From: a virus
Virus record (IMG/VR): IMGVR_UViG_3300020084_000028
Span: 1 to 45,263 of that record
Length of the DNA stretch: 45,263 bases
Direction: 5' to 3' (one strand)
Positions 3,605-35,000 of the stretch are shown one piece after another. The position numbers were made by a program, and so were the translations under genes. Position 1 is the stretch's first letter, and every line of letters starts with the position of its first letter. The notes beneath the pieces were generated by a model that ran no database searches, was not told the DNA's origin, and saw only the letters and a list, made by a program, of their open reading frames with translations.

Positions 3605-6400
3605 TCAAACTCTACCAGCGACTTCTTCAAAACTGACTCCAGTTCTGGTCGCAACAAATGTTAGAGTAATATAGTTAATAGATTTAGCTGGTTTCAGGAA
3701 GATATCAGCTCTAAATTCGTTATTATCAATAATATCTGGAGTGTTGTTGGTTTCATCGCAAATTACAAGATAATCATAAATTCCTCGCTTAGCTTGAATA
3801 TCACGTAAGTAAGGTTCAACAATGTTTACAAAATTAGATCTTGTAATCTGATCGTTAAATTCAAAGAGTTGTGCTTCAGCAGCTCTCTCCAGAGCTTGCT
3901 CAACTGTTAAGAATAATCTACGAACGTTAATTCTATCAAAAGCAGATGCATAAGCTAGTGCAGTCTTATCTCCAAAAAGAATTACGCCTGCTCCAGTTTG
4001 ATTGACAATTGAATTAACTCTTGCAGAATATAAAGAATCTCTTTGAGATTTATTTGGATTAAATGCTAGTTTAATAGCATTCTTTAAAACACCTCTTTGC
4101 TGACCAGCAGGTGAGAACCATGGATAAGCAATCAGATTTGTTCTTGCCATTAATCCAGCAACATCTGGGTTGCAAGGAATATAACGGAATAAGTTATTGA
4201 ATCTGTCGTAGGTGTACTTATATCCACTATCAAAAACTGCATATGATGAAGATTGAAGAGGACCAAAGAATTCAATAACATTGTTAGTTTGAACAATTGG
4301 ATTTGATAGATCAACAACGGATCCTCTATGTGGAGACAGTACTGCAACACAGTCCTTTCTACCATCTGCGATAGAAATCAGTTTATTTGCTTTTGCTTGA
4401 GAATCACTAAGCGAATCTAATCCAGGACCCATCATTAAGTAATCTACCGCAATTTCTTCTTTATTATTGAATAATTCATAAGATTCCATAATATCACCTA
4501 AGGTGGATTTTAAATTGCCTTGAGTAGTATAATTTTTGCCATTTCCGAGATCATAAGTAACTCTACCGATAGAAGAAAACCAAGCATCTTTTGAATCTCT
4601 GTCCCAAATAAGAGATGGTAGTGATGGAACACTAAATACCGTGTTTGGATCTGCCAAGTTGTAAATTGTAGCTGAATCTGCTAAGTTGAAGTTAATACCT
4701 GTTGGAAATGTATTCCAGGTAGAATCATTTTGTGTTGATTGATTTGCACCAGCATAAATGTAGTTTGAATAATTTGCAAGATAATTCTTATACCACATTT
4801 TTTGTGGAGAATTAACTTCCGATACAGTATCTTTTGCTTTCGATAAGAATAAATGCTTCTCAAGGATGTTGCCTTTAACTCCTGTCAAAGTTCCATCATC
4901 GTCAACTACAACAAGATGTAATTCATCATTGTATCCACCACGCTCATCAACATAGTTTGATGTTCCTGGTTTTGGTGCAATTGTTCTCCAGTAAATTGTT
5001 GAATTATCGAGTCCCAAAGTTTGAGAATCGTACCAATCATCAACACCAGCAATAACAACTCTTGAATTGCTATTTGTTACTGTGAGAATAACCTTATCAT
5101 TTCTTAAAGAAGAAACTGTTAATGTTGCATTATCTCCAGGAGTAACTCCACCAATTGATGCTCCAGGAATAGTAACCACTGTATTTGATCCATATCCCAA
5201 TCCAGGATTGACCATTGTAACAGTTCCAATTCCACCAGAAGCATTTCTGTAAACATTGAAGGATACACCAGAACCAACTGTGCTTACTCCAGCAACAGCA
5301 AGATATACACCATTAGATGCTGGTGCAACTACAGGAGCAGTTGTAAGTCCAATGTTGTTAATAACACCTTGAGATAAATTGTAACCACCAACAGCAGTTC
5401 CAGCAATTGATACTGTGTCGCCAACAGTATATCCTAAACCAGCATTTACAATTGCTGCAGTTAGAACGTTACCATCAGTATTATTTCTGGTAATAGTAAA
5501 TGTTGCTCCAGATCCAGTTCCTGCAGTTGTTCCACCAACTCCAGCATATGCTTGTCCTTGTTGACCATTAATTGCGGTGGAGGAAGTAATTCCGACTGCA
5601 GAAATTGAATCGGTTGGTGAGACAACTAATCCATTGGGATCAATAATTGTAACTCTTTGATCTTTTAAGAAAGATGCAAACGAACTATTTTGTGTATAAT
5701 GTGTTCTATATTGTCTACCTGGTTCTGTACCACCAGTAGAAACTCTAGAATGGATTTTTACAACTAAAGCACTGACACCTGTTTCTGGAGAATCAATCGC
5801 TTGAGTAATAACTCCCTTTAAATAACCTTGGAAGACTGATGTTGTTCCTGTGCCAGGAATAACTTGACCACTAACATCTACAGTTACTGCATATCCAACT
5901 TGAGCACCAATGCTCGACAAAGAAGTTGTTGCAATACCAAGAATTTGGTCTCCAAGATCGTCAATATAGCAAATCTTCAAACCATTTGCCCATGTACCTG
6001 GGTTCTTAGCAGCATAATAAAAGTTTGCTGCTGTATTGCTATAATTAGCATTGAAGTCATCAAAGTTTTTAATTTTTACATTTGTTACGCTAGTTGTTCC
6101 AACACCACAGTTAGCATTCTTAAGGTTTGCACCATCAGTTCTAATAACAGATAGGACTCCACCATACGATAAGTATGATGATGCACTCATCCAATACTCG
6201 TATTGGTTGTCTGCGGTTTGGGGTTTACCAAAAATGCTAATTAGTTCCTGTTCAGTAGAAACAGTAATTGGTTCGTTTACTGGACCAAGTTCAAAGGGTC
6301 CTGCAATACCTCCAATGTTATCTAATACATTGTCAGCTCTTCCTACGGTTAAATCAACCTCTCTAGTCAGTACACCAGGAGATAATTGAGGAGTCGCCAT
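3605..6400 (-). CDS. 18: Tail sheath protein gp18 with an inserted GxGY module, 931 aa
   Basis: This is the contractile tail sheath subunit. The N-terminus (PGVLTREVDLT) and C-terminus (FLKPAKSINYITLTFVATRTG) match the T4 and general contractile-sheath pattern; the C-terminal part is the core that contracts and drives the tube. The protein is about 270 residues longer than T4 gp18 (659 aa). Much of the excess is in residues about 180-440, which hold Gly-, Ser- and Thr-rich strands. At about 278-440 these include two copies of a GLGY repeat (NAGLGYTVGD, NPGLGYGSN) that is also found in gp7, gp8, gp14 and the DUF4815 protein. In known sheaths, insertions of this kind project outward from the core. 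It has a good Shine-Dalgarno sequence (AAGGAG) and its own late promoter candidate. Confidence 0.95.
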   Translation of the reverse strand: MATPQLSPGVLTREVDLTVGRADNVLDNIGGIAGPFELGPVNEPITVSTEQELISIFGKPQTADNQYEYWMSASSYLSYGGVLSVIRTDGANLKNANCGVGTTSVTNVKIKNFDDFNANYSNTAANFYYAAKNPGTWANGLKICYIDDLGDQILGIATTSLSSIGAQVGYAVTVDVSGQVIPGTGTTSVFQGYLKGVITQAIDSPETGVSALVVKIHSRVSTGGTEPGRQYRTHYTQNSSFASFLKDQRVTIIDPNGLVVSPTDSISAVGITSSTAINGQQGQAYAGVGGTTAGTGSGATFTITRNNTDGNVLTAAIVNAGLGYTVGDTVSIAGTAVGGYNLSQGVINNIGLTTAPVVAPASNGVYLAVAGVSTVGSGVSFNVYRNASGGIGTVTMVNPGLGYGSNTVVTIPGASIGGVTPGDNATLTVSSLRNDKVILTVTNSNSRVVIAGVDDWYDSQTLGLDNSTIYWRTIAPKPGTSNYVDERGGYNDELHLVVVDDDGTLTGVKGNILEKHLFLSKAKDTVSEVNSPQKMWYKNYLANYSNYIYAGANQSTQNDSTWNTFPTGINFNLADSATIYNLADPNTVFSVPSLPSLIWDRDSKDAWFSSIGRVTYDLGNGKNYTTQGNLKSTLGDIMESYELFNNKEEIAVDYLMMGPGLDSLSDSQAKANKLISIADGRKDCVAVLSPHRGSVVDLSNPIVQTNNVIEFFGPLQSSSYAVFDSGYKYTYDRFNNLFRYIPCNPDVAGLMARTNLIAYPWFSPAGQQRGVLKNAIKLAFNPNKSQRDSLYSARVNSIVNQTGAGVILFGDKTALAYASAFDRINVRRLFLTVEQALERAAEAQLFEFNDQITRSNFVNIVEPYLRDIQAKRGIYDYLVICDETNNTPDIIDNNEFRADIFLKPAKSINYITLTFVATRTGVSFEEVAGRV

Positions 6401-6437
6401 GGATAATTCTCCTTAAAAGTCTCAGTTTATCTGAAAA

Positions 6438-6444
6438 TATTTAG
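6438..6444 (-). promoter_or_regulatory. Late promoter candidate before gp18
   Basis: CTAAATA on the minus strand (context CCTAAATATT), about 38 bases upstream of the gp18 ATG. This is the form reported for cyanophage late promoters and a truncated version of the T4 late box. The 87-base gap before gp18 is one of the larger gaps in the late block, which supports a separate promoter here. Confidence 0.6.
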
Positions 6445-6487
6445 GAAAATGGGTAATTACATGGGGGAAATTGTGGGTGAACAAATA

Positions 6488-6718
6488 TCACCAATCTGGA
6501 TATTCCCATTCCATAACTTTAATAGTATTTTTTCTAGAACTAGTAATCCTTTTTACAGTGCAATCTTTACATTCATAAGAATATGAAGAAGCAACTGTCC
6601 CCCTTTTTTTACGAGTTCTGTAAAATCCATCAATTAAATTTTTATTCTCTCCACATACTCTACATCTTCTATCTACAAGCAATAAATGACTCAGCTTTAT
6701 CTGCTTGTCTAATTCCAT
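6488..6718 (-). CDS. Small zinc-ribbon-like protein between gp17 and gp18, 76 aa
   Basis: Two CxxC pairs, C19/C22 (CRVC) and C50/C53 (CKDC), fit one four-cysteine zinc site. The spacing (LLLVDRRCRVCG ... YECKDCTVKR) resembles the cysteine frame of HNH-type or zinc-ribbon nucleic-acid-binding proteins, but no HNH histidines are present. I chose the start at 6718 rather than 6733. That ATG overlaps the gp17 stop as TAATG and has GGAG eight bases upstream, whereas the earlier ATG lies inside gp17. Position between the large terminase and the sheath suggests late expression. A role in packaging or DNA binding is only a guess. The C-terminus is rich in tryptophan and tyrosine. Confidence 0.75.
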   Translation of the reverse strand: MELDKQIKLSHLLLVDRRCRVCGENKNLIDGFYRTRKKRGTVASSYSYECKDCTVKRITSSRKNTIKVMEWEYPDW

Positions 6719-8364: not shown

Positions 8365-8383
8365 AATAATTAATTAAATTTTA

Positions 8384-9790: not shown

Positions 9791-9808
9791 TTCTACAAAC
9801 ACTTTTTT

Positions 9809-10240
9809 CTATTTATCTGGAAGATCATTTCCCTTTTGTTTCTTTAAAAATTTTGATAATTCATCAGTAGATCCAAAAAACACCGCATTATTAGTAACAT
9901 TTGTTGTTCCTTTTCTACTAGAATTATCATCATCAAGGTCTTTTAATTTTTTCTGGAGGTCTAATAATTTATCCGTGGCATCCGCAACATTTTTTATAAG
10001 TTGCCCAACAACTTCATATGCTCTTGGTTGTCCACCATCAATTGCTAATTCTAAAGCACTGTCTAGTGCCTCTTGACCCTTTTCTATAATGGAATATAAA
10101 TTACCTCTAGTATATTCATAATCTTTAGTTACATCAAAATCATCACTCTTAATATCTTTAGATATTTCAGCAGTCTCTTTTTTTACAATTGATGAATCAA
10201 CATCAAAAGCATTACTTAGATTCTCAAATTTATCTTTCAT
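9809..10240 (-). CDS. 16: Terminase small subunit gp16, 143 aa
   Basis: This is the DNA-recognition and regulatory partner of gp17 in packaging. Support comes from position (between gp15 and gp17, as in T4), length near T4 gp16 (164 aa) and the helical core GNLYSIIEKGQEALDSALEL followed by a coiled-coil segment (about residues 80-108, LIKNVADATDKLLDLQKKLK). T4-type small terminases oligomerise through such a central coiled coil. I take the ATG at 10240 (MKDKFENLS), which lies just after the gp15 stop. The longer frame from 10276 would overlap gp15 by 32 bases and shows no matching conserved N-terminus. The C-terminus (STDELSKFLKKQK) is a plausible gp17-contact helix. Confidence 0.85.
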   Translation of the reverse strand: MKDKFENLSNAFDVDSSIVKKETAEISKDIKSDDFDVTKDYEYTRGNLYSIIEKGQEALDSALELAIDGGQPRAYEVVGQLIKNVADATDKLLDLQKKLKDLDDDNSSRKGTTNVTNNAVFFGSTDELSKFLKKQKGNDLPDK

Positions 10241-10244
10241 AATA

Positions 10245-11234: not shown

Positions 11235-11250
11235 TGTTTACAATTCTCCT

Positions 11251-12651
11251 TTATGGAATCCCAAATGGATTTGTTTCACTAAAATCTATTATTTGGTCTG
11301 CTTCAATTTCAATGTCTTGATTTTGAGCAAATTTGTCTTCGGGAATATTATTCTTATTTAGAATCTTAACTGCATATGCTGCTCCACTAAACTGACCAAT
11401 TATTGCTTCTCCTGCAATAAAGTCCCCTAAAATATTACCAAGTTTTAGAACCTGATTGACAGCATCCCAAGATTTTACTTTTGCCCTAGCACTACTTGCA
11501 GCACCAATTACACTTTCATTGAATACATATGTGCCATATCCAACGGTTTGTTGTGGTCCAGCAATTATAATAGTTGGAGCACTTTCGTAGTAACCACCAG
11601 CATCTTCAAGAATAATTGCAGTAACTGTGCCAGCAGTAGATACAACTGCTCTACCAACAGCATTTATAGTAGTGCTTCCAATTCCAGATTTTACAAAACT
11701 TACAGTTGGAATACCAATATACCCACTACCACCACTTGTGATAGTGATAATGCCTACTGCTTGACTTGATATTGATGCTGTTGCATATGCTCCCTTCCCT
11801 CCACCACCAATAAAGGTTACTCTTGGTGCTACAGTATAACCAAATCCAGGATTGGTAATATTAACTGCTTGGACTCTTGATAAATCTGGACTGGTATCGC
11901 AGAAATCTACTATGCCCCTAATCATTGATGCGATGCCTACAGCAGTTAATCCACCAGAAGGTGCTGATGTGATAGCAACTCTAGGAGCAGAAGTATAACC
12001 AGATCCACGTCTGGATACGGTAATTTTCCTTACTGATCCATTTCTCAAACTTGTAATTGCAGTTGCAGTTGATCCAAGACCAACCATATTGAAAGTTTGG
12101 ATATATCCTTCATCCTTAACGTTATCATCAATTTCAAGAATTCCAGTATTAATTTCTTCATCATTGTAGGCATATAATTCACATCTTAACTCATAAACGT
12201 AATTTTTTTGTAGTTGATAAAATGGTTTTTCATGCTCTACATATTTAATTTCAAACAAACGATCACCTAAAGGAAAATATATTAAATCACCTTCTTTAGG
12301 TCTACTTGTTAATTTTGATTTATCTCTTACTTCTATAAATGGTCTAACCGCAACTTCATAACGTTCTTGTGATATTACTAAAGTTAAATCATCAACTTCT
12401 TGGACTCCAAATTTAGATAGTAATGTTCCAGCACCACTATATCCGTCATAAGTATCTACATATGCCTCTATGGGAATAGCATCTCTAAATTGTGATCTAG
12501 AGACTTCCTCCATGATAGTTTTTTCATTTACAAAAATTCTGGGAATATAATATATTTCAACCCCGAACATTTTTAAATGCTCATTTACTAAATCCTGGAT
12601 TAAACTTTGTTCCCCAGAAGATCCATGTAGAAAGAAAGGATTTAATGCCAT
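11251..12651 (-). CDS. 14: Neck protein gp14 with tandem GxGY insertion, 466 aa
   Basis: This is a neck protein that, with gp13, seals the portal after packaging and joins head to tail. The N-terminal 170 residues (LNPFFLHGSSGEQSLIQDLV, then YEVAVRPFIEVRDK and a Tyr-rich strand) and the C-terminal end (IEADQIIDFSETNPFGIP) are the gp14 core. T4 gp14 is only 256 aa. The excess is a block at about residues 195-370 with four repeats centred on GSGYTSAP (217), GFGYTVAP (269), GSGYIGIP (308) and GGYYESAP (352), spaced 39-52 residues apart. A related repeat is found in four other virion proteins here. The insertion probably loops out of the neck. The start overlaps the end of the gp13 region with only a few bases between. 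Confidence 0.93.
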   Translation of the reverse strand: MALNPFFLHGSSGEQSLIQDLVNEHLKMFGVEIYYIPRIFVNEKTIMEEVSRSQFRDAIPIEAYVDTYDGYSGAGTLLSKFGVQEVDDLTLVISQERYEVAVRPFIEVRDKSKLTSRPKEGDLIYFPLGDRLFEIKYVEHEKPFYQLQKNYVYELRCELYAYNDEEINTGILEIDDNVKDEGYIQTFNMVGLGSTATAITSLRNGSVRKITVSRRGSGYTSAPRVAITSAPSGGLTAVGIASMIRGIVDFCDTSPDLSRVQAVNITNPGFGYTVAPRVTFIGGGGKGAYATASISSQAVGIITITSGGSGYIGIPTVSFVKSGIGSTTINAVGRAVVSTAGTVTAIILEDAGGYYESAPTIIIAGPQQTVGYGTYVFNESVIGAASSARAKVKSWDAVNQVLKLGNILGDFIAGEAIIGQFSGAAYAVKILNKNNIPEDKFAQNQDIEIEADQIIDFSETNPFGIP

Positions 12652-12655
12652 ATGA

Positions 12656-13495: not shown

Positions 13496-13517
13496 GCTTG
13501 AGTACCTTTATTGATTA

Positions 13518-13754: not shown

Positions 13755-13755
13755 A

Positions 13756-16700
13756 TCAAGCAAGCGCAATTACTCTCAAATCTTTGATTCTTGGTGGATA
13801 TGCTTGGTTTGTTGAAGAACCAACTATCTTAATACTAAAATATCTAAACTCTGGTAAGGAATCAATGCTAAATTCATAATCTCTAAATACCAGATTTGCA
13901 GACTCTGCAGATAAAATATCTGTTTTAGGGACATTTTTATCTGGTTTACCATTATTTTGACTTGGGTTAACAATGTTCCCATTAATATCAAGATTTTCAT
14001 ATCCTGGGAAAGGATAGTAAATTGGTTCAGCAGATGGATCATTACTAATTGAATAGAATACACGTACATCACTAAAAGTGTTTACATATGCTGCAAATAT
14101 AACTTTTAAAGAAGTAGCTGCGTTTTCTAATTCAACTGGTTGATTAGCATAGATAAACGCTGATGGGTCATCATTAATTGAAGAAACCCTAGGATCACTA
14201 ATATAATCTGATATTGGACTATCAATTCTATTGGATACTAAAATCATTCCAACTCTATCAAGATCGATCACAGGAGAAATTTTTGAATTGGATGTTGCTA
14301 GTGTAAACGTTAATTCCATGGATTTATTTCCAGGGAAGTTTGTTGTTTGTTCCAATTCATTCACCCTAGAGGCGATTATTCTAGGTTCTGGTAAATAAGT
14401 ATCTTCTGTTAAGTTAATTGGGGTTGCCTCTGTTTCAACGAATGAAATTTCCTCACCATCAACACTTGTTCCTGTAATACCTTTTAGAGTTGCTTTTACA
14501 GAGGTTCCAGGTAGAACCATTGTTTGAACAATTGGGTTTACAGTTTCATATTGAATATTTTGTGTTGCTAAGATAGAATCTCCACCACTTGATTTTGATG
14601 CATTTATATAAAGTTTAGGGAATCCAGAAATAGAAGATCTGTCTATACCATTTTCACTAGTATTAACTCTGATGTAATAACTATCAAGATCAATAGGTCT
14701 TTCAACCAAAGCATCCTGTAAATAGTGAAGTCTGTTAATTCTTCTTAAAGAAATTCCATTATTTTCATATTTTTGAATGGTAGTTCTATTTGGATAACTG
14801 AATGCACCAGTGCCTTCAACTGATCTAGTAATTCCAATTAATTGACCATTAGCAATGCCAGTATATGAAATAATTTCGTTGTCTAAAAGTGCATATCCTG
14901 GATTTGTTGCTCCAATAGATACATTTTCAAATACTTCAAACCCAGTTGTATTTGCAATACTAATAGGACCAGAATCTGAATTATTATAATCTGCTGTTAA
15001 TATAGTTGATTTAACATCTCCTTTGACACCACTGATTCTTACAACGTTTGTTGTAGAATGCATAGCATGATTTTTATGATTTACTTTAATATGTAAACCA
15101 TCTTCAGATAAAGATGCTAATTCAAAATCATTAACAACTGAATTTGTTCCAGTAGCATTAAGTATAGTTGTTATTCCACTCGATGCACTTACAAACTGAA
15201 GTGGTTTGGCGGCATTAATTTCAAATTCTCCTTGTACATTGTCAAGTATTAACTGGTTAACACCAACGACACTTGATAGTGACAATTGAAGATTTCTTCC
15301 TAAAGAATTATTTCCAATTGATGGAACTGCTAAAACGTCTCCAATTTGGTATCCATATCCACCAGTTCTAATTGTTGCTGCAAGAGCGACGCCATTTACT
15401 CCACTTGCTTGTCCAATGGTAATATCTGCAGTAGCATTTTTACCATTACCACTAAAAGAACTTAAAGGTACATCATTGAATGTAAATGATGTGCCATTTG
15501 ATGGAGTATAACCAATACCAGCATTAACAATAACTAATGACCCTGATGCAGAGCCACCAACACCAACATAGTCACCTCTAGCACTTGTATTCTTTTGAAT
15601 AACAGTATTACCAATGACTAATGAAGATGTATTGATAATATCACCTGTGCTAATAATTAATTTTTTGGCATCAAATTCTAAAGCATCCTTCACTAAGGTT
15701 GCAATTTGCCTATTACCTGTATTTAATTCTGGGTTATAGAATGATACTGTTCCAGAATCAGCAAGGAATCCAGCAGAAAAAAGATTAAATTTCAAATCTT
15801 CATACTGGCTTGGTGTCCAAGTAGAACCATTTTGTGATTTGAATAAAGATCCCAAATATGGTTGTGCAGATACAATAACCTGTCTTGATTCTGGTTGCAG
15901 TAATGTAGAAATATCAGTTTCACCCATTCTGGAAATCCAAACAGTGTACTCGTTTGAATTTGATAGTAAGACTACAGCATGGTCGGTATTTGAATGCAGA
16001 TATACTGGGGCTGGGAATGTTATCTTTGTTGGTTGGGTTGCATCAGCGGACACAACAACATTATCAGATTCTACTATTGCTTCTCCAAAAGGATATATGT
16101 CCTCAGAAGGAACACCATTAACAATTGGACGTAACTGAACAGTTACTGGAAGTAGCGAATCTTTAGTTCTGAAATAAACCTCAATACTAGTAATAAATGC
16201 CCCACCATCATCATTAATAGTGAATGACTGTGCAAGAGGATCCTTACCACCTCTTCGTGGTGGTGGCTGTGGTGGTGGTGGTGGTGGTCGCCGTGGTGGC
16301 GGTGGTGGCGGTGGTGGCGGTGGATTTGGTGGACGTGGAGGCGGATTCCTGGGGGAAGGGAATGATGGATTTGGGCGCGGGGATGGTGCTGGCGGCGGTG
16401 GTGGTGGCGGTGGTGGGGGTAGTGGAGTAATACTTTGAGTTGTTGAATTACTTACAGTAGTAGTAGATTGAACATCTGTAGCTGGTCTACTTTCACTAGC
16501 AGCAACGACATCAAATCTTGGTTTTCTTGTAGATCTTATAGTCTCCTGCATATTATTAATGGATCCAGAAGCAAAATATGCTTCTTGTCCAGAAGTAGAA
16601 GTTAAACCACCTAAAGTACTATTCGATTGTTGTGAGGTTAATCTGAAAATTTTTGTTCCAACTTCAAAAGATGGATTTGATGGTAAGTTTGGATCTGGTA

Positions 16701-21408: not shown

Positions 21409-21417
21409 AACTCTTTA

Positions 21418-23001
21418 CTAGAATTGCAAAATAACTTTGATATCTTCTCTTTGATTCACTGACCTTGTAATTGAAGGTCTATTATCAACATACAGAACGG
21501 TTCCAGAATATTTTTGTACTTCTGGAGAAGCCACTCCTTTAATAAAAGTTTGTCCCAAATAGTATGTTTTATTATTTATGACAGTACTTATACCTGGAGT
21601 ATTGTCTGTCCCAAATCCATCATCAACATATAAGTCTTTAGATCCACCGATTATTCTTAAAGAACCCCCAGTTGTAACTGTGGACGTAAACTTATTTAGT
21701 CTAAAACCATAAGTTGGGTTTGATTTTTGTGTCCCGTCTGTATTAAATCCAACTAAAGATCTATCTTGCCAATACTTTAAAACACCAGTTTGTGCATCAT
21801 AAGAAACAACCCTACCAATAGCAGTGGCACCAGTTCCTACAGTTTGAGTAATATATGCATTTTGTTGAAAAGTTGTTGATCTATAATCGTCTACATTTGG
21901 TGCTAAACCTTTTAATTTAATGGCAAATAAAGAACTAACTCGATCTTCAGTAATAACTGTGCTTGATTCATATGCTTGAGGATTTTCAATAATTCCAATT
22001 CTTGCAACAGAAGTGCCCGTCACAAAGTCTGGATTCTGATCATCATTTTCAATTCTAGAGTATATAAGAACATTTGTAGAACCTAGTTCTTTATATACAT
22101 CAGCACCATGACCACCAGGAGGAGGAATTATTACATCAAATATTGGAGTTAAAGAACCAGTAGGCACATTTCCTCCAACTAAGTCAACACTTGCATAGGT
22201 ATATCCAGAACCACCATTTGAGATTGTAATTGATTCTACTTTAGCGTCATTGTTGATTACAATGGTGCATTCTGCACCAAGACCATCTCCCTTAATAGGA
22301 ACTCTGGTATAAGTAGTGTTTGGTGGACCAACTAAGTACCCTCTATTCTTTACAGTAATAGTTTTTAATTGACCACTTGTTTCTGCATTATTTTTAACTG
22401 GTAAATAATCTGCATTTGTTTCCCAGTCTACTGGAAGAGGTATAAAATTGAGGGAGTCAAACTTAATAACATCACTTGGACTAATAGTATAAAGATATTT
22501 CCAAATATAACCATCACCACTAGTACCAGCTGCTCTTGGTTCTAAGTCCGTAAATTTAGGTTCATCAAGAGAAGGTTTTCCATTTGGGTTTTCTGGATCA
22601 ATACCATTATTTAAACAAATATAAACTCTAAATTCACTATTGACAACAAAATAGTTTGAAGAATATAAACTTGTTTTATTAGATGGTTTTGATAAATTAT
22701 TTCTATTAATGTCATGACGATACATATCATAAATTGTAGCTGAAGCCCATTGTATTTTTCTAACAACTGGTCTTACATCATCAGCAGCAATTTTTTTCAA
22801 CGCAACCATAGTGTCCCAATAAAAATTGGTATCATCAAAACAGTCTCGTGGAGACGGTGGACTAGTATTCCAATTATCTTGAACTTCATCTGCATTGGGA
22901 AGTCCAATAAAAGTATAGTAAGAATTACTAGGGTCCCTAATTTTATCGATGAAAGCTCTTGCGTTCTTAACTCTCAATAAATCAGTTATAATTGCTGCCA
23001 T
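21418..23001 (-). CDS. 8: Baseplate wedge protein gp8 with inserted module, 527 aa
   Basis: This is a baseplate wedge subunit that binds the gp7-gp10 arm. The stretch GDGYIWKYLYTISPSDVIKF corresponds to the T4 gp8 segment GDGYVWEYLFEIPPDV, and the layout before it (FIGLPNADEVQDNW, FYWDTMVALKKI, VVRKIQW) follows T4 gp8. T4 gp8 has 334 aa. The extra length lies after residue 205 and includes a GxGY-type block at about 211-305 (KNRGYLVGPPN, SNGGSGYTYAS) shared with other virion proteins of this phage. A GATAAATA late-promoter-like box stands 28 bases upstream. The DUF4815 gene follows after a 9-base gap with its ribosome site in the overlap region. Confidence 0.88.
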   Translation of the reverse strand: MAAIITDLLRVKNARAFIDKIRDPSNSYYTFIGLPNADEVQDNWNTSPPSPRDCFDDTNFYWDTMVALKKIAADDVRPVVRKIQWASATIYDMYRHDINRNNLSKPSNKTSLYSSNYFVVNSEFRVYICLNNGIDPENPNGKPSLDEPKFTDLEPRAAGTSGDGYIWKYLYTISPSDVIKFDSLNFIPLPVDWETNADYLPVKNNAETSGQLKTITVKNRGYLVGPPNTTYTRVPIKGDGLGAECTIVINNDAKVESITISNGGSGYTYASVDLVGGNVPTGSLTPIFDVIIPPPGGHGADVYKELGSTNVLIYSRIENDDQNPDFVTGTSVARIGIIENPQAYESSTVITEDRVSSLFAIKLKGLAPNVDDYRSTTFQQNAYITQTVGTGATAIGRVVSYDAQTGVLKYWQDRSLVGFNTDGTQKSNPTYGFRLNKFTSTVTTGGSLRIIGGSKDLYVDDGFGTDNTPGISTVINNKTYYLGQTFIKGVASPEVQKYSGTVLYVDNRPSITRSVNQREDIKVILQF

Positions 23002-23028
23002 TTTTTGAATTTAGACTTCTATATCTTT

Positions 23029-23036
23029 TATTTATC
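23029..23036 (-). promoter_or_regulatory. Possible late promoter before gp8
   Basis: GATAAATA on the minus strand, one mismatch from the T4 late box TATAAATA, 28 bases upstream of the gp8 ATG and overlapping the stop of the gp7-like gene. It would start a transcript covering gp8, the DUF4815 gene and the neck genes. Confidence 0.5.
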
Positions 23037-26000
23037 AGCTAATGTAACCCAAATATTTTAATGGGTTCTTTCTTTTTATTATTGGATTTGTTGATATTCC
23101 TGATTGTCTTGTATCATGCTGTGCCGAGAAAGTTCCAGGTCCAATTCTAACAGGCATGTTAATCTTACCCCAAGTGTAATGTCCATAAAATGCTGTTGTA
23201 GCAAAACCAACAATACCACTTAAAGGACTATTGAGAACTTTTACAACTACAGTTGTAACCGTAGTCGCAATTCCAACAGTTGATGCTAATCCGCTAATTC
23301 CAGGTGGTATAATTGCAGATTTTGTATACCAATCTGTGCATTCAAATGTCATATCTGCAAATTGAGATGATATACCTAAAATAGAACCATCACTTCGTAG
23401 TGATGCTTGAGGTGCAACTCCAAAATTAGATCCAACAACATTGAATAAGTATCCTGTTGTAATTCCAGTTTGAGATATATTCAAACTTGTTCTTATTCTA
23501 GAATCTAATGGTATGAATAAATCAAATTCTAGACTTAAGCATGTAGTAACGCCAGAGCAAGATGTTGTTGCAACGCCAACTACAATTCCATAATCTCCTT
23601 CATAAGATACTCTAATTACATCTTCAACCTTTCTTGCTGGAGGTGCGATTAAAACTTCAGGCGGTAAAATGGAGGCAACTGTAAACTTCATTGGTGATTT
23701 TAATGCCCATTTTCTAGAAGTCGTTGCCAATCCAACATTGTCAAAGGTATCAACATAAACAATATCTCCAACAGCATAGTTTGCACCGTTGTCAATAACG
23801 TTGACAGAAGATATGTTAAAGTTTAAGATGCTGATTTGTATATCAGCAGTTGCTCCTCTACCAATTCCAGTTTCTGATTTTAACCTAGCCTTGTAGAAAG
23901 TGTTATTACCAGGACTCAATGGTGGGAATCCACTACCTTGTTGCGTTATTGTAATTGAATCTAGTGGACCATAAAAATAATTTGTTCCACCAGTTCCAAC
24001 TGATATTGAAGTAATAGATCCTCCAGTACCAATTGTAGCAGTTGCTGTAGCATTAGTCCCAAATCCATATGGTTTTTGTATTGTTACTTGAGGTGCAATT
24101 GTATATCCATACCCAGGGTTTGTTATTAGTACACTAGTTACTGATCCACCAGATCCTAGAGTTGCTCTTGCAGTTGCAGACTCTAAATTATCCTGGCTAA
24201 GTATTTGAACAATAGACCTTTCCTCAAGAGGTATACCTTCATAAGAATCATCAAATAATGGTCTAATACTATAGACAAAAACATAAGTGGATCCAATTCC
24301 AATAGATTCAATAATATTTGTGTTTGGACTAATTGCTGGTTCATAATATACTCTATCTTTACCAACAAATTCATTGTCTATAATTTTATCTACAGTTTGT
24401 TTAAACCAACTAATTGGTCTGGAGAACAGTTCATTAAGAGTAACACCTTGACCACCATAGTTATTAGTAATGATTTTATCTGCAGATATAATATCCATTA
24501 CAAGTCTTCTTTCTTCTGTAAATGTTTCATCAATATCACTATACAGTTGAACATCATCACCAACTTTAACACTAGGTAAAACATCAACGGTTTTAACGTC
24601 AATGTTTTGAGTTCCAGTATACATTAAAAGTTTAGCTGTATCACCAGTTGTACTAAAACCAGATACCAATCCTTTTGGTGCTTCCGTAAATCTTAATGTA
24701 CTTCCTCCATTAAATTGGTATCCTTCTCCTGGAGTTTGTAAAGTATCATTTATGAACACAAGTAAATTTGATTGTAAATTAATTCCAGAGTTTGCTCTAG
24801 CAAAGAATGATATACTTTCCCCATTTACAGTTAATGGGAATAATCTTCTTCTTCCGTTAAAAAAGTCTGAAATGTCATCAAGTACAATAAATTCACCAAC
24901 ATTCCATCCAGAGAATTTACTTTGATAAGTTCTATCAATTGTAAGTTCAAAATGATTGAATGTTGAAATTCCAGTAGTTGGAATTCCTGTTGTTCCTCCA
25001 ATAGCAACAGTTAATGTTTCACCAGAACCATACCCATAACCAAAATTATTTAATTCAAAGTTTAAAATTGTGCTATCTTGACTTGGAACCAAATCAACAG
25101 TGGCACCAGTTCCAAATCCAACTACACCCTGTTTATAAATTAGTGGAATATTATAATAATTTAAAGGACTGTCAAATACAACGTCAATAGGTTTGGTAAC
25201 CTTTCCACATTTTTTATAAAAATGAGTATATGGTGATGTTCCAGAATTAATGATAAATGTATAATCATCAACTATTTTAACTATTCCCGTTCCATTTGCT
25301 GCTGGGTCTTGTCCCGTAGGAGAATTGTTAATTTGTCTAGGAGCAATGATAATTTCTTCAACAGTTCCTCCAGACACATAATCTAATGTGGTAGATCCAA
25401 TTCCAACATTAAGTTCAAATTCACTTATATTATTAATTCTAGTTACTTGAGTTCCACAATAATCTGTAGTATTTGTATTTGGGTGTGTGACTATCCCAAG
25501 AGCACTTGTGAATCCCAATCCCGTTAGAATTACGTCAGTTCCAACTTTTAACTTATGTCCAAGAGTTAAAGTTCCACCACTTACATATGAATGTGGAATT
25601 GTAGATATTCCAGAATTAAATGTGAGTGTATAAGAATCTGGTGCAGAAAGAACTTTAAATGTATTTCCTAAAGGTGATACTATTGAGTCACCAGGGAATA
25701 TGTCGGTATTAATACCAACTTGAATTACACCACCAGAAACATAAGTATGTGGTATGGTAGATGGACCAACATTAACAGTAAAAGATGTTGTTGCTCCAAC
25801 TTCTGTACCAGTATTAACAGTAAAGAAATAACCCTGAGTTCCATCTGGGAATATTGTTGTAGTTACTCCTGAAGGACCTGTACAAGAGAACTCTAGTTCT
25901 CTCATTTTAAAATTATCACCTGAACTTAACCCATGATTTCCAACAGTAAACACTGTGGATAATCCAGTTGTTTCATCGTAAATAAAATTATAAACTGCAA

Positions 26001-29000
26001 AAGTTTGCCCGTAACCAACGCATGTTAATGCTAATCCAGAAAGACTAAAACTTCTACCAATTGCCGTTTGTGTTATTAATTTATGGGGTTGTGTAGTAAC
26101 AATAGTAGATAATCCAGTTGTGTTATCGTATGTAAAGTTAGCAACATTTAGAGTTGTTATGCCAACAGTAGTAACTGTCATTATACCAGTTGTATTATTA
26201 TATACTGCCGTGCTTACTCCAATTGGAGGATAGTAATCACATGTGAATGCTGCTCCAACTACTGATACTTCTTCACCTAACCGCAATCCGTGTGGAGTTG
26301 AAGTTGTTACTGTAGTAACACCAGTAATAGAACTATAACCAATGTTGGCAACTTCTCTTGGAGCATAAAATACTTTTGGATTAGTTATTGCAACACCAAT
26401 TACATGCCCATTTAAGACTGAAGCAATTCCAATGTAAGTTATATCTGCAGATCCATAACTAAAGGTTTGAATCCCAACTCTTACTGTTTGTAATCCTGAT
26501 CTGTAACCAGAACCAGAATTACCTATAGATATTTGAGATATTGTTCCTGCTGTAGATACCAACGCGGTTCCACCAGCAGCAACTAATGGTTGATATCCAA
26601 ATCCCTCTGTGGATCCAACACTGACGATAATTCCACCTCTAGGAGTGCTGTTTACATTAATATCATTTGTTAATGTTGGATCCGCGACTGGACCACTAAA
26701 TCCTACTTGTAATTGTCCTCCACCAGCAATAAGTTTATAGTCCCCAGGAATGTTTGTAAGGACATTTCCTAATCTTTGAGGTCCTTGGAAGATATCATTT
26801 ATTAAGATTAGAGTATTACTAGATGTAATATTATCAATATCGTTACCTTGATATTTTAATGTAAAGGTTGTTGTAATACCATTGAATTGATTTGATATAT
26901 CATCAAAAACATAATTATTATCATAGGCTTTTATAAAACTAGTTGTAATTGATTGATTTAATGCTGATCTTAAAAATACTCTTCCACTAAATCTAGAACT
27001 AGTTGTTAATCCAGTATAGTCAATATCTCCAGCAGATGTTGCGGTAGTTCCAAATCCAATTGGTAAATTACCCCACATTGGTTCAGAAAAATGTAGTCTA
27101 TTATCTAAAACATTATAATTTCCGACAAATTTAGTAATTACAGCATTACTTGCATGGGTATCTTCTGTAGATCCCATCCATGCTCTTTTAACATTCAATA
27201 CATTAGTGGTTGAATTGACGGCAGAAACTAACATGATTTCATCGTCAATTTGAATCAAATCACCACTAAAAATAGATGTAACTCCAACAACGTCAATGTT
27301 AGTTGTTCCTATCCCAACACTAGAAGTAGTTGCTATTGTATATGCAGTTCCAACTAATGGTGATTGAATAGTGCCGTTAATTGTAATTAAAAGTCTATTA
27401 TTTGGAGATATTGATTTGAATAAATGGGTGCTACCAATTCCAACTGCTGTAATTGCAACTCCAATAGGGTTAAACAATAGCGCATTTGTTGCTGAAGTTG
27501 CAACTCTTACTTTTTGATTGTCTTGCTTAATTATAATAAACTTAGAAGGTAAAAGATTTGTTACTCCAATTCCAGAACCAAAATCTGATGGCGCAATTTT
27601 AATAGCGTTTGCAAAATCATTATTTGGTGGAATGTATTCAACTTCTTCTCCACTAACAAAAAAGTGATTTCCAAGATTTATTGTCCCATCACCAAATTCA
27701 AGTTTAGTAGAATCACTTCCATTAAAAGAAACCTCAAATATTGGAAAACCTCCAGATTTTAATCCAAATCCCCTGTTAACTCCATTAAATTCATCGCTAA
27801 AATCATCAATTGTTAAAACTCTATTTCCTATAAATTCTTGATATTGTGCTAAAAATGGTAAATTAAATAAAATTTCATTTGATATTAAAGTATTTTCTAC
27901 TTGAATACTTTTTTCTCTAGCAATATCAAAATCTTTTACAGAATTTAAGTCAACAACTTCTGTTAGATCGGAAATAGCTATTAGTGCATTTAAATTTTGT
28001 GCTGTGGACATTCCAGCAACATTTGGATCATATGAATCAATTGTTAATTCACTAAATTTCTTAAATCCTGCAGTATGTATTAAATTACTTACTAACGGAT
28101 TCCAAACTTGATATTCAATTGGAGACCTAACAGAATATGAAAAATATTGATAATAATCATTATCATGTATTCTTTGGAAAGATTGATTGAGTTTTCCTGT
28201 CTCTCTTAACCAACCTTTTTTAGTAATACTATTGGATTCAATTAAGTATTTTGCAGTAATACCATCAACAGACGATATAAGACCTTTGTTTTGAGAAGAT
28301 GCTCCAATCACAAGGTCATCTACCTTAAATATTTTTTTAGATCTTATTTTTAAAAATTCATTTCTTCGGTCATAAGATTGAACGACACCAACATTTCCAT
28401 CTTGGGCTACGATTATTTCCCCATTTCTAAAACTATCTTTTTCCAAATCAACATCAAATTCTGGAAAATATGCCTCTGGAGTCGCTGTACCAAAAGATTC
28501 AAAACTATCAAAAATACCTGGTTCTTCTCCAGGGTTTAAAAATCCAGTTAAATTAAACGTTAAAGTTGGATTATCGCCACCAATGTCTGGATTTGCTGCT
28601 GTAATTCTAAACAACCTGTAATCATAAGCAGCAGAATTATATCCTCTACCACCAAAATTGGCATCAATATTTGTATTTTCTACAATTATTTTTTCACCAA
28701 CAATGAATGGATAATCTTGTGATGATGCAAATGTTACAGCAAAAGAAACTGTGACATTTAAAGTTCCTGGATCAAATACAATATTTTCAATTCTTATTCC
28801 ATTTGGATTATTAATTGGTAATATTTTTGGTGTTACGTTATACAAACCTGTTGTATTTCTTATAATTGTTACCTCAGTATCTCCAATTTCATATTCAAGA
28901 GAAACTTCAGTATTTACTCTTCCTGTAAATCCATCAACAACTGCAAGTTGTGGAGCAACAAAATAGTTTACCCCAGGAGTAACTATTTGAATTCTTTTAA

Positions 29001-32000
29001 ATTTTGATAGTGGTTCAATTTTATATGTGTATGGAAAATTTGCAAGAGGTCTTAATGTTTTATCTGATGGGTAATCAAATCCAATGTCAGTTAAAACAAC
29101 ACCATTAACTTTACCAATAGTTTTACTTCTTGGTAAAAATAGAGCTGCAGTTCCAAGTCCACTTACAATTTGGGTCACATTTGGTAGTCTTACATAATTT
29201 CTACCTCCAGAATCAATACTAATTTTAGCAACAGGTCCTATTGCAGTGCGAGATGCTGTAGAATATGTTGTTTGTGCTTGTAAATTATTATAACTAAATC
29301 TTTCTGGTGTAAGTTCTAATGAATATTTAAAAGTATTAGAAGTAATACCAGAAACTGTAGTAATTCTATTAAACTTACTATCGACAACAGATAATTTGTT
29401 AGGATTTTTAACGTTAAGAGAATCACTTATAATTTCTAATTTTGCTGCTGTTGCACCAGCATATTTGATTGGAGTCAAGTTATAATATAGTGATGTTGGA
29501 ATGAAATCATCTATAATTAACTCAGCCTTTCCATTTGATTCTCCGATTGTTCCACTCTTTCTAAAATTAAATGCACCTGTATTTTGTGGAGACGTATAAA
29601 ATTCTTTTTGGAAGAGAGGATCAAAATAAATGTTAAAGTCAAATGAGGGTAAAGAACCAGAAGCTAGTGTAGTGCTTGATAAATCAAAAATAATTGTTGA
29701 ATTTTTTGTTGCAAATATTTCTGGATTAACTGGTGTGATAGAACCTGCTGCTTGGGTTCCAATATTTACTATTTCAATTGCAGTATTTGATGAAATTTTG
29801 TCGTAATAATAGTGAGATAAAAGAACTGTGTTGTCATCAGAGACAATAACATAATATATTTTTGAATTTATTAACCCAGAAGACGGTGTTGCCGAATTAT
29901 AAATTACTTTTTGTCCAGTTACAAATCCATGATTTGGTAATGTAATAGTATTTCTAGATAAATTAATAGCAACATCAACAAATACTCTTGGATTTACTAA
30001 CATCCTTCTGTTAATGTCATCATAAGAAATAACAAAAGTTGTAGTAATACCAGAAGTAACCTTAATGTTAACTTCGTCTCCACTTGTAAGACCATGCTCT
30101 CTATTTGTTATAACAGTGGCGGTTTTCTTATAAACGTCTCCACGAATAGTTAATGGTAAATTAGTCTTAATACTATGAACCTCTCCAGTTCCATAGTCTG
30201 CAATCCTAAACAATTCTAGAACATCAGAACCAATTCCAACAAATCCACCAGTACTACCAATTCCTATTCTTTGAGTGGAAACACCAATAAAATCATTATC
30301 ATATGTTGCAACATATAAGTCCTGAGAATCTAAAAGTGGTGTTGTTGTTGCCGCATAAGAAACGCGAACACCAGTATATCCATGCCCAACGTTATATTTT
30401 ACTTTATCACCAGTTTTGAAACCATGATTTGGTAAATAAAATGTATTTACAATTGTTTGTATTCCTTTTTTCTGAGTTACTCCAGGATTACTAAAGAACA
30501 ATAATCCAGACTTTTTAGATGCTCTTGTTAATGCACTTCCCGAAGTTTCATAATAACTACTAGTTAGTTTTCCAAGTTCAACTTGAGCACCCCATACATA
30601 CACTGTTGGTGATGAATTTAAAGTAAGACCTTGTGTACCAAATGTTCCAATTCTTATTCTATGAGTTCCAGCACCAGTTTGAGCGGTAAGACTATATCTT
30701 TTCCAATCTGAACTTAGTGTTACTAGTTGTGAATAATATAAAGATCCATCATCTAAAATAAAATAAATCTGCTCATTTCCAGTGTGTCCTCTTAAAAATA
30801 CTGAAAATGTATTAAAATCTGATGATAATGAAACAGGTTCAAATTTTAATCCAAATGCATCAGATGCTCCAGTGGTTGAAGCAAAAGAAACTTTTGCAGC
30901 ATTAGTTGAACCATCTGGAGAAACAGCACTAAAATATTCTACAGTTCCAGTTCCTATTCCTGAAGTATAATAATCCCAAGCAGATGGGACAAGAGATGGT
31001 GGAACTGGAGTTGAATATAGTATTAGATTTTCAGATGGAATTATTGCAGATTCCCTAGGATCAAAGTAATATTCACTGTTTAAACGATATTCTGTTGATG
31101 TACTAAAACCACTATTAAAAGTAAATTTTCTACTCAGTTCTACTATATCATCACCTGAAGTATGTGCAGCTGATACGGATCCACTAAATGATCTATAAAC
31201 TTTAATTCTAGAATCTTGTGGATATACGTTTATAATCTTGAATTTTTCCGATTCAATTTTATAAACATCATTTACAGATAAAATAGGAAAATTTAGATTA
31301 CCAGAAACATTTAAATATGTGACTATTCCAGTTTGTCCATCATTACCTATGCTTGATGATAATGTAAGAGTATTTGTAGATATGCCAACTGTATAAATTG
31401 ATGCAAATTCTGTAGATAAAATATTTAAATTTTGAACAGATACAATGTCACCATTTATTAAAGAGTGGGAAGTGCTAGCAAATCCTACATACCTTCCACT
31501 AGACCCAAAAGGAGTAAACTCCACATCAACTAATTTACTAAAGCTATATGAGATAGAATCTACATCTCTACCTTTAATTTCTGAAATTCTAGCGTATGCT
31601 CCAGAACCTCCTGTTCCTTGACTGTTAAAGAATATATTATCCTGTATTGAATAATTATCTCCAGGAGAAATTATTTGGAGTTCTGTTAGTTCACCAGGAC
31701 TAATACTATTAACTTCAGTAAATCCTTTACTAAAAGTATCTGGTTGAATGAACCCTTGATATTTTGTTTTATTTAAAAGTAATCCTAATGGACTTGTAAA
31801 TCTAATCCAACCAGTTTTATTTAAATTGACAAAGGATAAGTTTGAATATTGATCAAAATTATATTCAATCGGTTTAGATTTAAACGTATCTCCAACAATG
31901 TATGGAAATATTGGTTTTAAATATCCATTAAATGGTCCAGACGCATCTTTTAATGTATTTACAGTTGCAAAATATGCATAAGTTCCATTTGGAAATTCTG

Positions 32001-35000
32001 GAGTTTTGCAATATCTTCCATTGTGTATGTCTAAATCACCATTATTTGTAAATTCATAATCTTGAACAAAATATCCAGGAGGGAAAGACGCTGTAGATGG
32101 TCTATATCCTTTTAACTTTAGTTCATATCCACTACGAAGTCTTACAACTGCACCACCTTCCTTGTCGGCATAACCATAAGGTCCATAAATTGGGTTACCA
32201 TCGTAAGCCCATCCGATAATAGGAGAATGATATTTTGTGACATTACTTTCATTGTCTATGTCTGCTCTATAGACTTTATTACCCAAAATATCTAATGATG
32301 TTGATAGAAGTTTTCTTCTAAGTTCTCTAGCAGCGTAAGCATGAACAAATTGCAATCCTTTCTCTGATGCAAGAGGATTGCTTACTATTCCATCATCATT
32401 ATTTACCTGATCTGACTGGAATAATCTTTCAACTATGTTAATAGTCCAAGATTTAACTTTAGCTTCAAATCTAGCACCATTTCCTGTAGGTATTACTTTA
32501 ATAATAGTATTTACTTGATTGTATCCAAATCCACTTTCAATAATTTTTACGTCAACAATTGCTCCATTTAATATTACTGGAACCAAAATAGCACCAAATC
32601 CAGAACCAATAACTTCTAGCAAAGGTGGTGAATTATAATTTGAACCTGGGTTATTTACAATCGCACCAATTATTTTGCCTTGTGATGATACAATTACACT
32701 AATTTGTCCATTTTCACCATTTAATAGTGTTATATTTGGTTGACGATTATAGTTTACAACATTTGGGTCGCCATAATTGTCACCAATATTTTTCATGGAG
32801 ATTGATTGTATCGCTCCAGTAAAAATTGGTCTGATTCTGGCATTAAAATCTTGACCAGCAAAAGTAGTAACTCCAATTGGAGATTCAATTTTTATATTAA
32901 TTGGTTGATACTTTATAGAATGCTGCCCTGAACCAACATCTGAAAAATCAATAAATCTTTTGTTTACATAATTATAATCATTTGATATTGTGCTTCCAAC
33001 TCCTACAGGGTTAACAGAAGCAACTCTAAATGTATTTTTATTAATAACATTAATAAAATACTCAGAATTAGTCGAAAGACCTACTGGTAAAATTCCATCA
33101 GTATCAAATAATATAGTTTCTTTTTCTGAATAACCATGATTTAGAATTGTAATTGTATTATCAAATAAATTGATTGAGTCACCATTAAAGAATAAAGTTT
33201 TATTGCTATATCCTTTTCCAGGATTAATTACTTCAATTGAGGATATAACTTTTTTTCTATCTGTAGATGTTAATTTTTGGAGACCTTCTCCGTAAGATCC
33301 AAAAGTAACAGTATTAATACCAGAAATGGCATCATCTAAAGTGTTATGTAATTTTATACGAACAGGATCAATTATGTTGACAAAATAAATCGCATCGTCA
33401 ACCAGATTGCCAATTTTAGTTTGATTTTGTGAATTATAAATTATTTTTTCAAAATTTCTAAATTTATGGTATGTTGTAAATCCAATAGAATTATTCGTTA
33501 AATTAACCTGATCATATAAACTACCAGCATTAAAAGATACTGAATGGATAATTCTAGATAAATTCGCCTTTGCTTCCGCTCCAGTTCCGTTTCCACCTGA
33601 AATTGTAATTTTTGGTTCATCAGTATAATCAAAACCTTTATCCAAAATATTAATTCTAGACAAAGATCCAGTCACATTACATATACCCTCAGCACCAGAA
33701 CCAAAAATAGTGTTACCAGCACCAACATTATCGGATATGAGCATTATTGGGGGGTCAATTACATCATAATTTGAATCTCCATTTGAAGAAACCACAATTT
33801 CTTCAATAGGACCAGAGTAAATTGTGTCTGATGATTTATAATTTAATAATTCTACACCATTTAAAAATAATCCTAGTGTTCCTGGTTTTGTAATTCTATT
33901 TTCAACAATATCATCATCAACACTTGGAGAAAATTTTCTAATTAAATCCTGTGCTTGTAATCTTCTATCATTATATTTTAACAATGAAAGTTTATTATTA
34001 AATACTGTACCAAAAACATAGACAAACTGACCACTTCTAATATTTGATCTACTTGTAGCTAATCGTATTGTACTAGAATTGACTTTATATACAAAATATG
34101 GCCCCTCTGCAATATTCAAACCAATATTATTATTTCGTGAATAATATACAGCTTCTCCACTAATAAATGAGTTTGAACCAATGTTAAGATCAAATCCATC
34201 ATATTGCCCTGTAAATATTACAGATAAGTCCTCAACAATAATAGGAGTATTATAATAATTTGGTAACGAAGAGCATACAACATAAGTATCTTCGTCATCG
34301 GTATAAACATTTTGTATGTCTGCCGAAATAATATTAATTTCTGGTTGATTATTACTATTTGTTTTTGAAATTCCCTTTCTAATTGAATATTTTACATTAG
34401 TTGTATCAATTCTAGTTGTTAAATTAACGTCAAATTCATATTTGTTTGACACTGCTATAACAAATATATTGTATTGATTACCATCACTTCCTTTTATTGT
34501 ACCAATATCACCTAAAGTAAATATATTAGGGTCAAAAGTTCTTATTCTATATTGAGCAGCTCCATTTAATTTTAAAGCAACTTGAGTAATTTGTTCAATT
34601 TCATATTCTGGTGTTACATTATTAATCCACGTCGTTCTTACTTGATCTTCACTATCTGCTCCTAAAGAAACAATCTCAACCTGGTCGTCAATTTCATAGT
34701 AATAAGATGAATCTCTATCAAACTCTAGGTCTCCAAGTACCCCAGTAATTTTAACTTTAATTTGCTCATTAGAACTTGTAAGTGCATAAGCATAATCTGG
34801 AGTTGTTATATCTGTGTTTAAGTCTATTGCAACTGGAGAAGATACACCAAAAAATTGTGTTGAACTTTTACCGTTGTAAGTAAATTTATATTCTACGGTA
34901 TTGTCAAATACAACAAGAGTTCCAGAGTCTGTAAAACTTAATGTTGAATCAACATCAAGATAAGTCTGTCCTAATCCAACAGGATTAGTAATTTTTGTTT

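Follow-up and report, generated by a model that had tools for sequence, protein, structure and literature searches.

A GxGY repeat shared by neck, sheath and baseplate proteins of a T4-like cyanomyovirus

Phage immunoglobulin-like (Ig-like) insert domains are a known class of extra beta domains on virion proteins. Ig-like extra domains of tail sheaths are mentioned in PMC9230969, and PMC6669499 describes the 936 lactococcal siphophages, in which shared carbohydrate-binding module (CBM) "bricks" occur on neck, major tail and Dit proteins. For the marine podovirus Carin-1, PMC13317679 presents the D3* domain of the tailspike depolymerase Dpo31 as inserted, protruding and Ig-like, with distant DALI similarity to sugar-binding domains. 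In PMC3004832, domain I of the phage T4 sheath protein gp18 is described as a protruding domain that takes no part in contacts between gp18 subunits; the long tail fibres in their retracted state bind to it, as does the baseplate. Here we analysed a 45,263-base virus record of IMG/VR (IMGVR_UViG_3300020084_000028), called the window below, which carries late genes of a T4-like cyanomyovirus. These lie on the minus strand, as do all window coordinates given in this text, and encode the gp18 sheath, terminase, gp15, gp14, gp13, a DUF4815 protein (2550 residues), gp8, a gp7-like protein (4290 residues) and gp6. The phage records matching the window are those of Synechococcus, Prochlorococcus and other cyanophages or marine phages. 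An earlier note, made from the sequence alone, had claimed that a short beta-type unit with the motif GxGY is shared by five of its virion proteins (gp7, gp14, gp8, gp18 and the DUF4815 protein) and would be displayed over the whole tail.

The window resembles the 936 phages in having one shared module type across several tail and neck proteins. The 936 modules are, however, CBMs, with host binding shown for two of them, whereas the GxGY units have no Pfam CBM match beyond chance (one of 55 units matched CBM_5_12, at E 0.13). Like the Ig-like inserts, the unit forms an extra block in different virion proteins (gp14, gp18) that is missing in relatives, and both are added beta domains; Dpo31 D3*, which has two GxGY units, is itself called Ig-like by its authors. 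The module differs from these inserts in consisting of tandem three-strand units and in having no match at E ≤1 to Ig, FN3 or BIG models in any of its five segments.

The shared unit and its copies

The GxGY unit comprises about 38 residues (38-40), with a rough consensus "A.A..I..G.V..I.ItN.GsGYt..P.Vt" and just three nearly invariant residues (G, G and Y). Its copies in the five proteins were linked above background by hidden Markov models (HMMs), BLAST and hhalign, and the proposal of one shared unit was thus borne out. For hhalign, family alignments were made of IMG/VR relatives, each from 80 loci. For gp14, 44 loci were translated and 31 sequences aligned, while 30, 29 and 30 sequences were aligned for gp18, gp8 and the DUF4815 protein, respectively, the window being included in each case. 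All six pairs among the modules of these four proteins reached probabilities of 74-95% (E 5e-8 to 3e-5), compared with at most 8.2% for 60 other pairs among 12 segments and at most 2.2% in 180 comparisons with shuffled module columns. As the module pairs far exceed the column shuffles, the sharing is not due to composition.

Single-protein searches gave a graded picture. An HMM with no seeds other than the four gp14 units matched gp7 (E 2.5e-7) and gp8 (E 1.9e-5), and on gp18 gave a best domain value of 0.003 with a whole-sequence E of 0.52; in 357 shuffled or reversed control proteins the best domain reached 0.028 and the best whole-sequence E 0.032. The DUF4815 protein was not matched by this HMM. 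In BLAST of gp14 against the window, three places in gp7 were found (E 1.1e-8, 2.3e-6 and 6.5e-6). When each protein in turn was held out of the HMM, the best scores, among held-out scores above 2 bits, were 21.1 bits for gp18, 20.5 for gp8, 11.4 for gp14 and 28.8 for gp7, against maxima of 5.8-6.8 bits in 850 shuffled proteins. The held-out DUF4815 protein scored 4.6 bits, under its shuffled maximum of 7.7. It is tied in by profile-profile comparison, in which its module gave 94.9% with gp8, 90.8% with gp18 and 77.8% with gp14; gp7 is tied in by BLAST and HMM. The bare motif G.GY was enriched over shuffled sequences in gp7 (9 vs. 1.8 expected) and gp14 (3 vs. 0.2 expected) and more weakly in gp8 (P 0.015, with a copy in the gp8 core included in the count), and showed no clear excess in gp18 (P 0.064) or the DUF4815 protein (P 0.106).

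Unit positions were determined with profile A5, made of 55 of 121 listed units. It includes seven window units from gp14, gp18, gp8 and the DUF4815 protein and none from gp7, so that the A5 scores of these seven are high by construction. In the window A5 found 13 units (three in gp14, one in gp8, two in gp18, one in the DUF4815 protein and six in gp7). The neck (head closure) protein gp14 (11251-12651, 466 aa) is T4 gp14-like at residues 3-175 (Pfam T4_neck-protein, 2.5e-31; PDB T4 gp14, 7e-27) and has the four copies previously counted. Units 1 (11953-12066; A5 E 7.6e-16), 2 (11797-11907; E 5.0e-16, 11.4 bits with gp14 held out) and 3 (11677-11790; E 5.3e-12, 6.8 bits with gp14 held out) are rows of A5, while the degenerate fourth (AGGYY, residues 333-370; 11542-11655) was missed by A5; it was detected by the gp14 HMM alone, among whose seeds it is counted. 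In the tail sheath gp18 (3605-6400, 931 aa; Pfam sheath domains, and hhalign to T4 gp18 of 100% for the C-terminal and 98.3% for the N-terminal part) the expected two copies were both found by A5, at 5387-5500 (E 3.2e-12; 21.1 bits with gp18 held out) and 5150-5260 (E 3.0e-11; 12.4 bits with gp18 held out), each a row of A5.

For two proteins, the earlier count of about two copies held in part. The baseplate wedge protein gp8 (21418-23001, 527 aa; Pfam Phage-Gp8, 3.2e-14) has one good copy (22162-22275), a row of A5 with an A5 E of 2.5e-13 and 20.5 bits when gp8 was held out; whether the degenerate stretch around 205-240 counts as a copy is doubtful. The motif at residue 162 (SGDGYIWKY) was ruled out, as it belongs to the conserved core of gp8. 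In the DUF4815 protein (13756-21408; Pfam DUF4815, 1.2e-58) one copy was found by profile (15310-15414; A5 E 1.5e-8, row of A5), and a second, weaker one (GIGYTPS, 15466-15579), which gave the 4.6 bits mentioned above, is visible only in the family alignment, where it is kept.

The giant gp7-like baseplate wedge protein (23035-35907) was assigned from gene order before gp8 and a weak Pfam Baseplate_wedge match (0.0021, below the cut-off); it also contains a YHYH domain (PF14240, E 7e-24) at residues 1222-1317 (31957-32244). It had been credited with at least 13 copies, a number that found no support: plain GxGY occurs nine times, A5 found six units and BLAST with gp14 added two stretches, which gives six to eight places. 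The strong unit (24067-24177; A5 E 1.4e-12) lies within a BLAST match to gp14 and received its 28.8 bits from the units of the other four proteins. The other five A5 units are weak (E 0.001-0.012), at 23950-24051 (E 0.0049), 26494-26568 (E 0.0123), 28936-28992 (E 0.0036), 32599-32688 (E 0.00125; 7.3 bits with an HMM without gp7) and 33202-33252 (E 0.0043). The two stretches resembling the gp14 array, both missed by A5, are residues 695-813 (33469-33825; BLAST E 1.1e-8, HMM 9.1 bits at 747-776) and 2188-2285 (29053-29346; BLAST E 2.3e-6, HMM 5.6 bits at 2213-2252). Two gp7 units beat every shuffle with the held-out HMM.

The carrier proteins are longer than their T4 counterparts, as had been stated (gp14, 466 vs. 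256; gp8, 527 vs. 334; gp18, 931 vs. 659; gp7, 4290 vs. 1032 residues), the growth of gp7 consisting mostly of sequence other than GxGY units. In the AlphaFold2 model of gp14 (mean predicted local distance difference test, pLDDT, 68.9; mostly 80-94 at residues 191-430 and 71-94 in the array block from residue 181) the unit is predicted as three strands, with GxGY between the second and third. The gp18 model (mean pLDDT 42.7; insert blocks 57-86) gave the same strand-GxGY-strand order in both units, and this order was seen at all five modelled copies checked (gp14 216, 269 and 308; gp18 321 and 400). One shared beta-type unit at neck, sheath and baseplate is supported, and the predicted models place the gp14 and gp18 motifs in one strand order, not in unrelated folds.

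Distribution in relatives, other phages and bacteria

The unit-bearing blocks can be absent from relatives. The array block of gp14 (residues 176-369; 11545-12126) is missing in S-TIM4 and P-SSM7, whose gp14 aligned to window gp14 at residues 6/8-175/176 and 369/370-464, with 45 nucleotides between the two pieces. Likewise, the sheath of B23 aligned to window gp18 at 1-259 and 430-931 only and lacks the block with both units (residues 260-430; 5111-5623). We infer that the blocks were gained in the line of the window rather than lost in the relatives. Counts of gp14 units were zero in S-TIM4, P-SSM7 and HTVC008M, one in S-RIM8, two in S-WAM2 and ACG-2014f, three in S-SCSM1 and four in Sf-CH8 and B23. 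The step from short (310-312 residues) to long (463-489 residues) open frames of cyanophage gp14 is accounted for by the GxGY repeat. Tail proteins of T4-like cyanophages are far larger than those of T4, and one unnamed repeat accounts both for this step in gp14 and for the block that separates the window sheath from the B23 sheath.

In a survey of 14 cyanophage-type records (nine named phages and five IMG/VR contigs) gp8 carried the unit in 12 (not in Sf-CH8 and ACG-2014f), gp14 in 11 and the sheath in four, all of them IMG/VR relatives. The sheath frame of one IMG/VR relative (G004:C1:26332-29124) has a single internal TGA. Between 3 and 26 unit matches were obtained per record, at mixed thresholds (E up to 10 or up to 0.01). 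The genome of S-TIM4 has 25 unit matches, 16 of them in a 6603-residue "structural protein" (L351 6440-26251; S-TIM4 60439-80250). Among five T4-like phages outside the group, T4 and Caulobacter phage Cr30 had one match each, in Cr30 in a "structural protein", and Vibrio R10Z, Dickeya Kamild and Acinetobacter Morttis had none.

The suggestion that the units act as a diversity reservoir by recombination was not supported. Units of gp14 were closer to their counterparts in other genomes (47-60% identity) than to the other units present in the same genome (27-42%), and so keep positional identity without homogenisation. Belonging to one genome made hardly any difference to how close units were (at most 0.015, in either direction), and no DNA match above 27 bases was found between modules of different window genes. 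The spread of the unit is thus an old one, with no sign of ongoing exchange.

PHROG searches widened the range of carriers: the gp14 insert matched baseplate wedge, tail fibre and virion structural families, and the unit region of gp7 matched 15 families, including head closure, the gp8 family, tail fibre and hub/tail lysozyme. The repeat thereby ties together neck, sheath, baseplate, fibre and hub families. When three units of a gp14 relative were used as queries, tblastn at E 0.001 found at least 26 of 50,697 phage records, namely 25 of Synechococcus, Prochlorococcus or "marine virus" and Xanthomonas phage X1. A search of the phage collection with the X1 array gave no match at all, although it contains the record of X1 itself; tblastn is thus insensitive for these units and the counts are low. 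The sheath of X1 (L372 730-2706) has two strong units at residues 237-309, inserted neither at the T4 domain I site nor where the cyanophage sheath has its insert.

Against bacterial genomes, the X1 array detected at least 18 loci (Planctomycetes-type, Bacteroidota, Paenibacillus, Nostoc, Acidobacteria and other records), in a genome scan with at least 598 stretches of the pattern; a plasmid search for the unit gave no match. A Pfam scan covered 10 of the 18 proteins. Four had no match at E 0.001, and the other six were tail sheaths (Nostoc and, below the cut-off, Hyphomicrobium), a GH64 glucanase with dockerin, a SusD protein, a multicopper oxidase with fn3 and a YCF48-like protein. The tail sheath of Nostoc foliaceum (L378 1864-3966) has six tandem units at residues ~250-480, spaced by 37-40 residues. 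The frames adjoining it are presumably tube-like and LysM-type, and the locus is probably a contractile injection system cluster whose sheath bears a large decoration array. In the sheath-like protein of Hyphomicrobium (L380 2515-4290) two GxGY units were detected by profile. The module is therefore shared as the earlier note said, whereas its scope as a tail module of this phage was drawn too narrowly, since other phages, a sheath gene cluster of a bacterium and further bacterial proteins have it too.

Named families and solved structures

No named family for the repeat was found in the Pfam and NCBIfam models scanned, and no paper on it in the open-licence PMC literature searched, in agreement with the earlier statement that no named system describes it. 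In Pfam the module segments of the five proteins reached no cut-off and the 55 units gave a best E of 0.0087; in NCBIfam gp14, gp18 and a gp7 segment gave nothing at E ≤0.1. One bacterial unit protein (L373) matches TIGR02601, but the best stretch (1873-1903) falls beyond the units, whose last GxGY is at 1397. The glycoside hydrolase family GxGYxYP (PMC4071793) was set aside, as the likeness is one of names only and the Pfam scans did not bring it up. The kind of arrangement, shared decoration modules on tail proteins, is known, while the GxGY repeat itself is without a name in the models scanned. It would merit its own domain model, which would be of use in annotating contractile sheaths, very large virion proteins and proteins that bacteria secrete.

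Searched over all PDB sequences, the unit profile matched only Dpo31 (E 0.0041) and T4 gp18 (E 1.9). The Dpo31 matches (442-461 and 484-505) lie inside D3* (434-536; PDB 28lx, 28mg and 8ck1); according to PMC13317679, Dpo31 is a trimeric tailspike depolymerase and in this differs from the window proteins. Over the whole T4 genome there was one match, gp18 102-118 (E 0.0058), at the start of domain I (98-188; PF22639). Domain I resembles the window insert in this half-unit match and is a beta barrel that protrudes from the sheath, yet its insertion place is different: at the T4 site the window, X1, B23 and HTVC008M have a short linker, as compared by eye from alignment anchors, since MAFFT misplaces T4 in that stretch. 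The gp18 insert of the window did not match PF22639 at E ≤1 (cut-off 27 bits). Among the module segments the best score was that of the gp7 segment (14.1 bits, E 0.048, below the gathering cut-off of 27), and 3 of the 55 units matched at E up to 1, the best being the 0.0087 given above. Residues 267-443 of the gp18 model aligned with 3foa_B 99-186 (Z 4.2, root-mean-square deviation 3.1, 76 residues), a weak match from a poor model. Domain I as the positional equivalent of the window insert, which this Z suggested, was rejected because the insertion sites differ. A candidate second unit in domain I (GKNY, of the form GxNY) was also rejected, being absent from the 13 other T4-type sheaths aligned.

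Possible roles of the repeat

In our view the repeat is likely to be a mobile, outward-facing adhesion or docking element carried in internal blocks, comparable to phage Ig-like domains and CBM "bricks". The three-strand unit would sit singly or in tandem in internal blocks of tail proteins that relatives can lack. Such blocks would have been inserted, not lost in relatives, and would build extra beta domains that probably protrude from the core machine at sheath, neck and baseplate. The protruding add-on could then serve for weak binding to the host outer layer or polysaccharide, or for docking of virion parts on the tail exterior. Exposure is suggested by Dpo31 D3*, by T4 domain I and by the tolerance of presence or absence, and as the unit also occurs in tails of other viruses and in bacterial proteins, it looks like a general-purpose outward-facing add-on. 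By analogy, cell-surface binding may stand slightly ahead of docking within the virion, because the unit accompanies polysaccharide-active or -binding proteins (depolymerase, GH64 and SusD). Docking is a close rival because of T4. Glycan binding by the unit is possible, and cross-bracing of the tail, likewise raised in the earlier note, may be a role. Virion proteomes of cyanophages list gp14 (S-SM1; PMC3037559) as well as sheath, stopper and baseplate wedge proteins (S-CREM2; PMC10665884).

Several observations weigh against this interpretation. The near-invariant G, G and Y look structural, unlike a ligand site. As only four of the 14 records have sheath units, a sheath can work without them. 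By the pLDDT values given above, the overall quality of the gp18 model is poor. Foldseek of the gp14 model against solved structures at E ≤0.001 matched only the T4 gp14 part; against predicted viral structures it led to cyanophage structural and baseplate wedge proteins, with query TM-scores of 0.11-0.34 in the rows shown. The T4 match is weak both in the genome and over the PDB, and domain I is at another sheath site. Moreover, convergence can arise among beta repeats with a high content of G, T and V, and shuffles control for composition, not for convergence of fold.

A bolder form of the adhesion proposal, which we put forward tentatively, is that cyanophage tails are coated, all the way from the neck to the baseplate and in relatives also on fibres and hub, by an adhesive repeat. 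The tail as a whole, and not its fibres alone, might then stick weakly to the outer layer or exopolysaccharide of picocyanobacteria, and the same repeat would have been taken up independently by other contractile sheaths and by a polysaccharide-degrading tailspike.

Alternatively, the modules might be contacts between tail parts (retracted fibres, baseplate, neck and sheath) and not host binders, which we regard as possible but on the unlikely side. The sole match in the T4 genome lies in the domain that, according to PMC3004832, binds the baseplate and retracted fibres, and the same source reports that G106S, S175F and A178V in this domain inhibit fibre retraction. With the start Met counted, the T4 gp18 sequence has Pro at 106 and Gly at 107; the three published residues fit only without the start Met, which makes G106 the first glycine of GSNY, the form of the motif in T4. 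We derived this mapping ourselves from the numbering of T4 gp18. The fibre-retraction mutant offers, in a laboratory phage, a genetic handle on what such a module touches. A profile of T4-type domain I (for which sheaths L359 and L367 were omitted because of stops, and L369 was not used, as its match is partial) gave 77.2% with the DUF4815 module and 10.6% with the gp18 module, and at most 1.4% in eight comparisons with non-module segments. On the other hand, it gave 4.6% with the gp8 module, no better than the 5.8% of the T4 domain II control, and 0.6% with gp14. The T4 match also spans half a unit at a different insertion site, and bacterial enzymes and a SusD protein, which belong to no tail, carry the unit as well.

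Rather unlikely, in our judgement, is an inert spacer or stiffener, i.e., a neutral, easily inserted beta repeat that merely enlarges or stabilises proteins. The variable presence and number of units (0-4 in gp14, and the few sheaths that carry them), the structural appearance of the conserved residues and the mutually unrelated bacterial carriers are what such a repeat would show. The retention of the gp8 unit in 12 of the 14 records and the positional identity of gp14 units across diverged genomes speak against it. Convergence of low-complexity beta repeats without homology draws on the shortness of the units, their three nearly invariant residues and their richness in G, T and V, and is improbable given that all six module pairs far outscored both the column shuffles and the control pairs. 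Exchange of near-identical units among genes for diversity, to which the many copies per genome would lend themselves, is very improbable in view of the lack of homogenisation in gp14 and of longer cross-gene DNA matches.

Two further observations concern the motif and the remainder of gp14. A tyrosine corner, considered as a possible role for the motif, was dropped, as Pro occurs at Y-4 in just 18% of 220 units. The C-terminal part of gp14 gave VIA matches to residues 760-850 of chains 5iv5_BJ (T4; Z 7.5) and 9f4a_A0 (phage KP1; Z 8.1), which, going by length and Pfam position, are taken as domain V of gp7. As these values are close to the tool background of 7-8 and hhalign gave 0.3%, a gp7-type barrel was not accepted there and is kept as a lead only. 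The barrel-like segment itself ("GEaIiGq" pattern, residues 374-433; 11353-11532) is retained in phages without the GxGY array.

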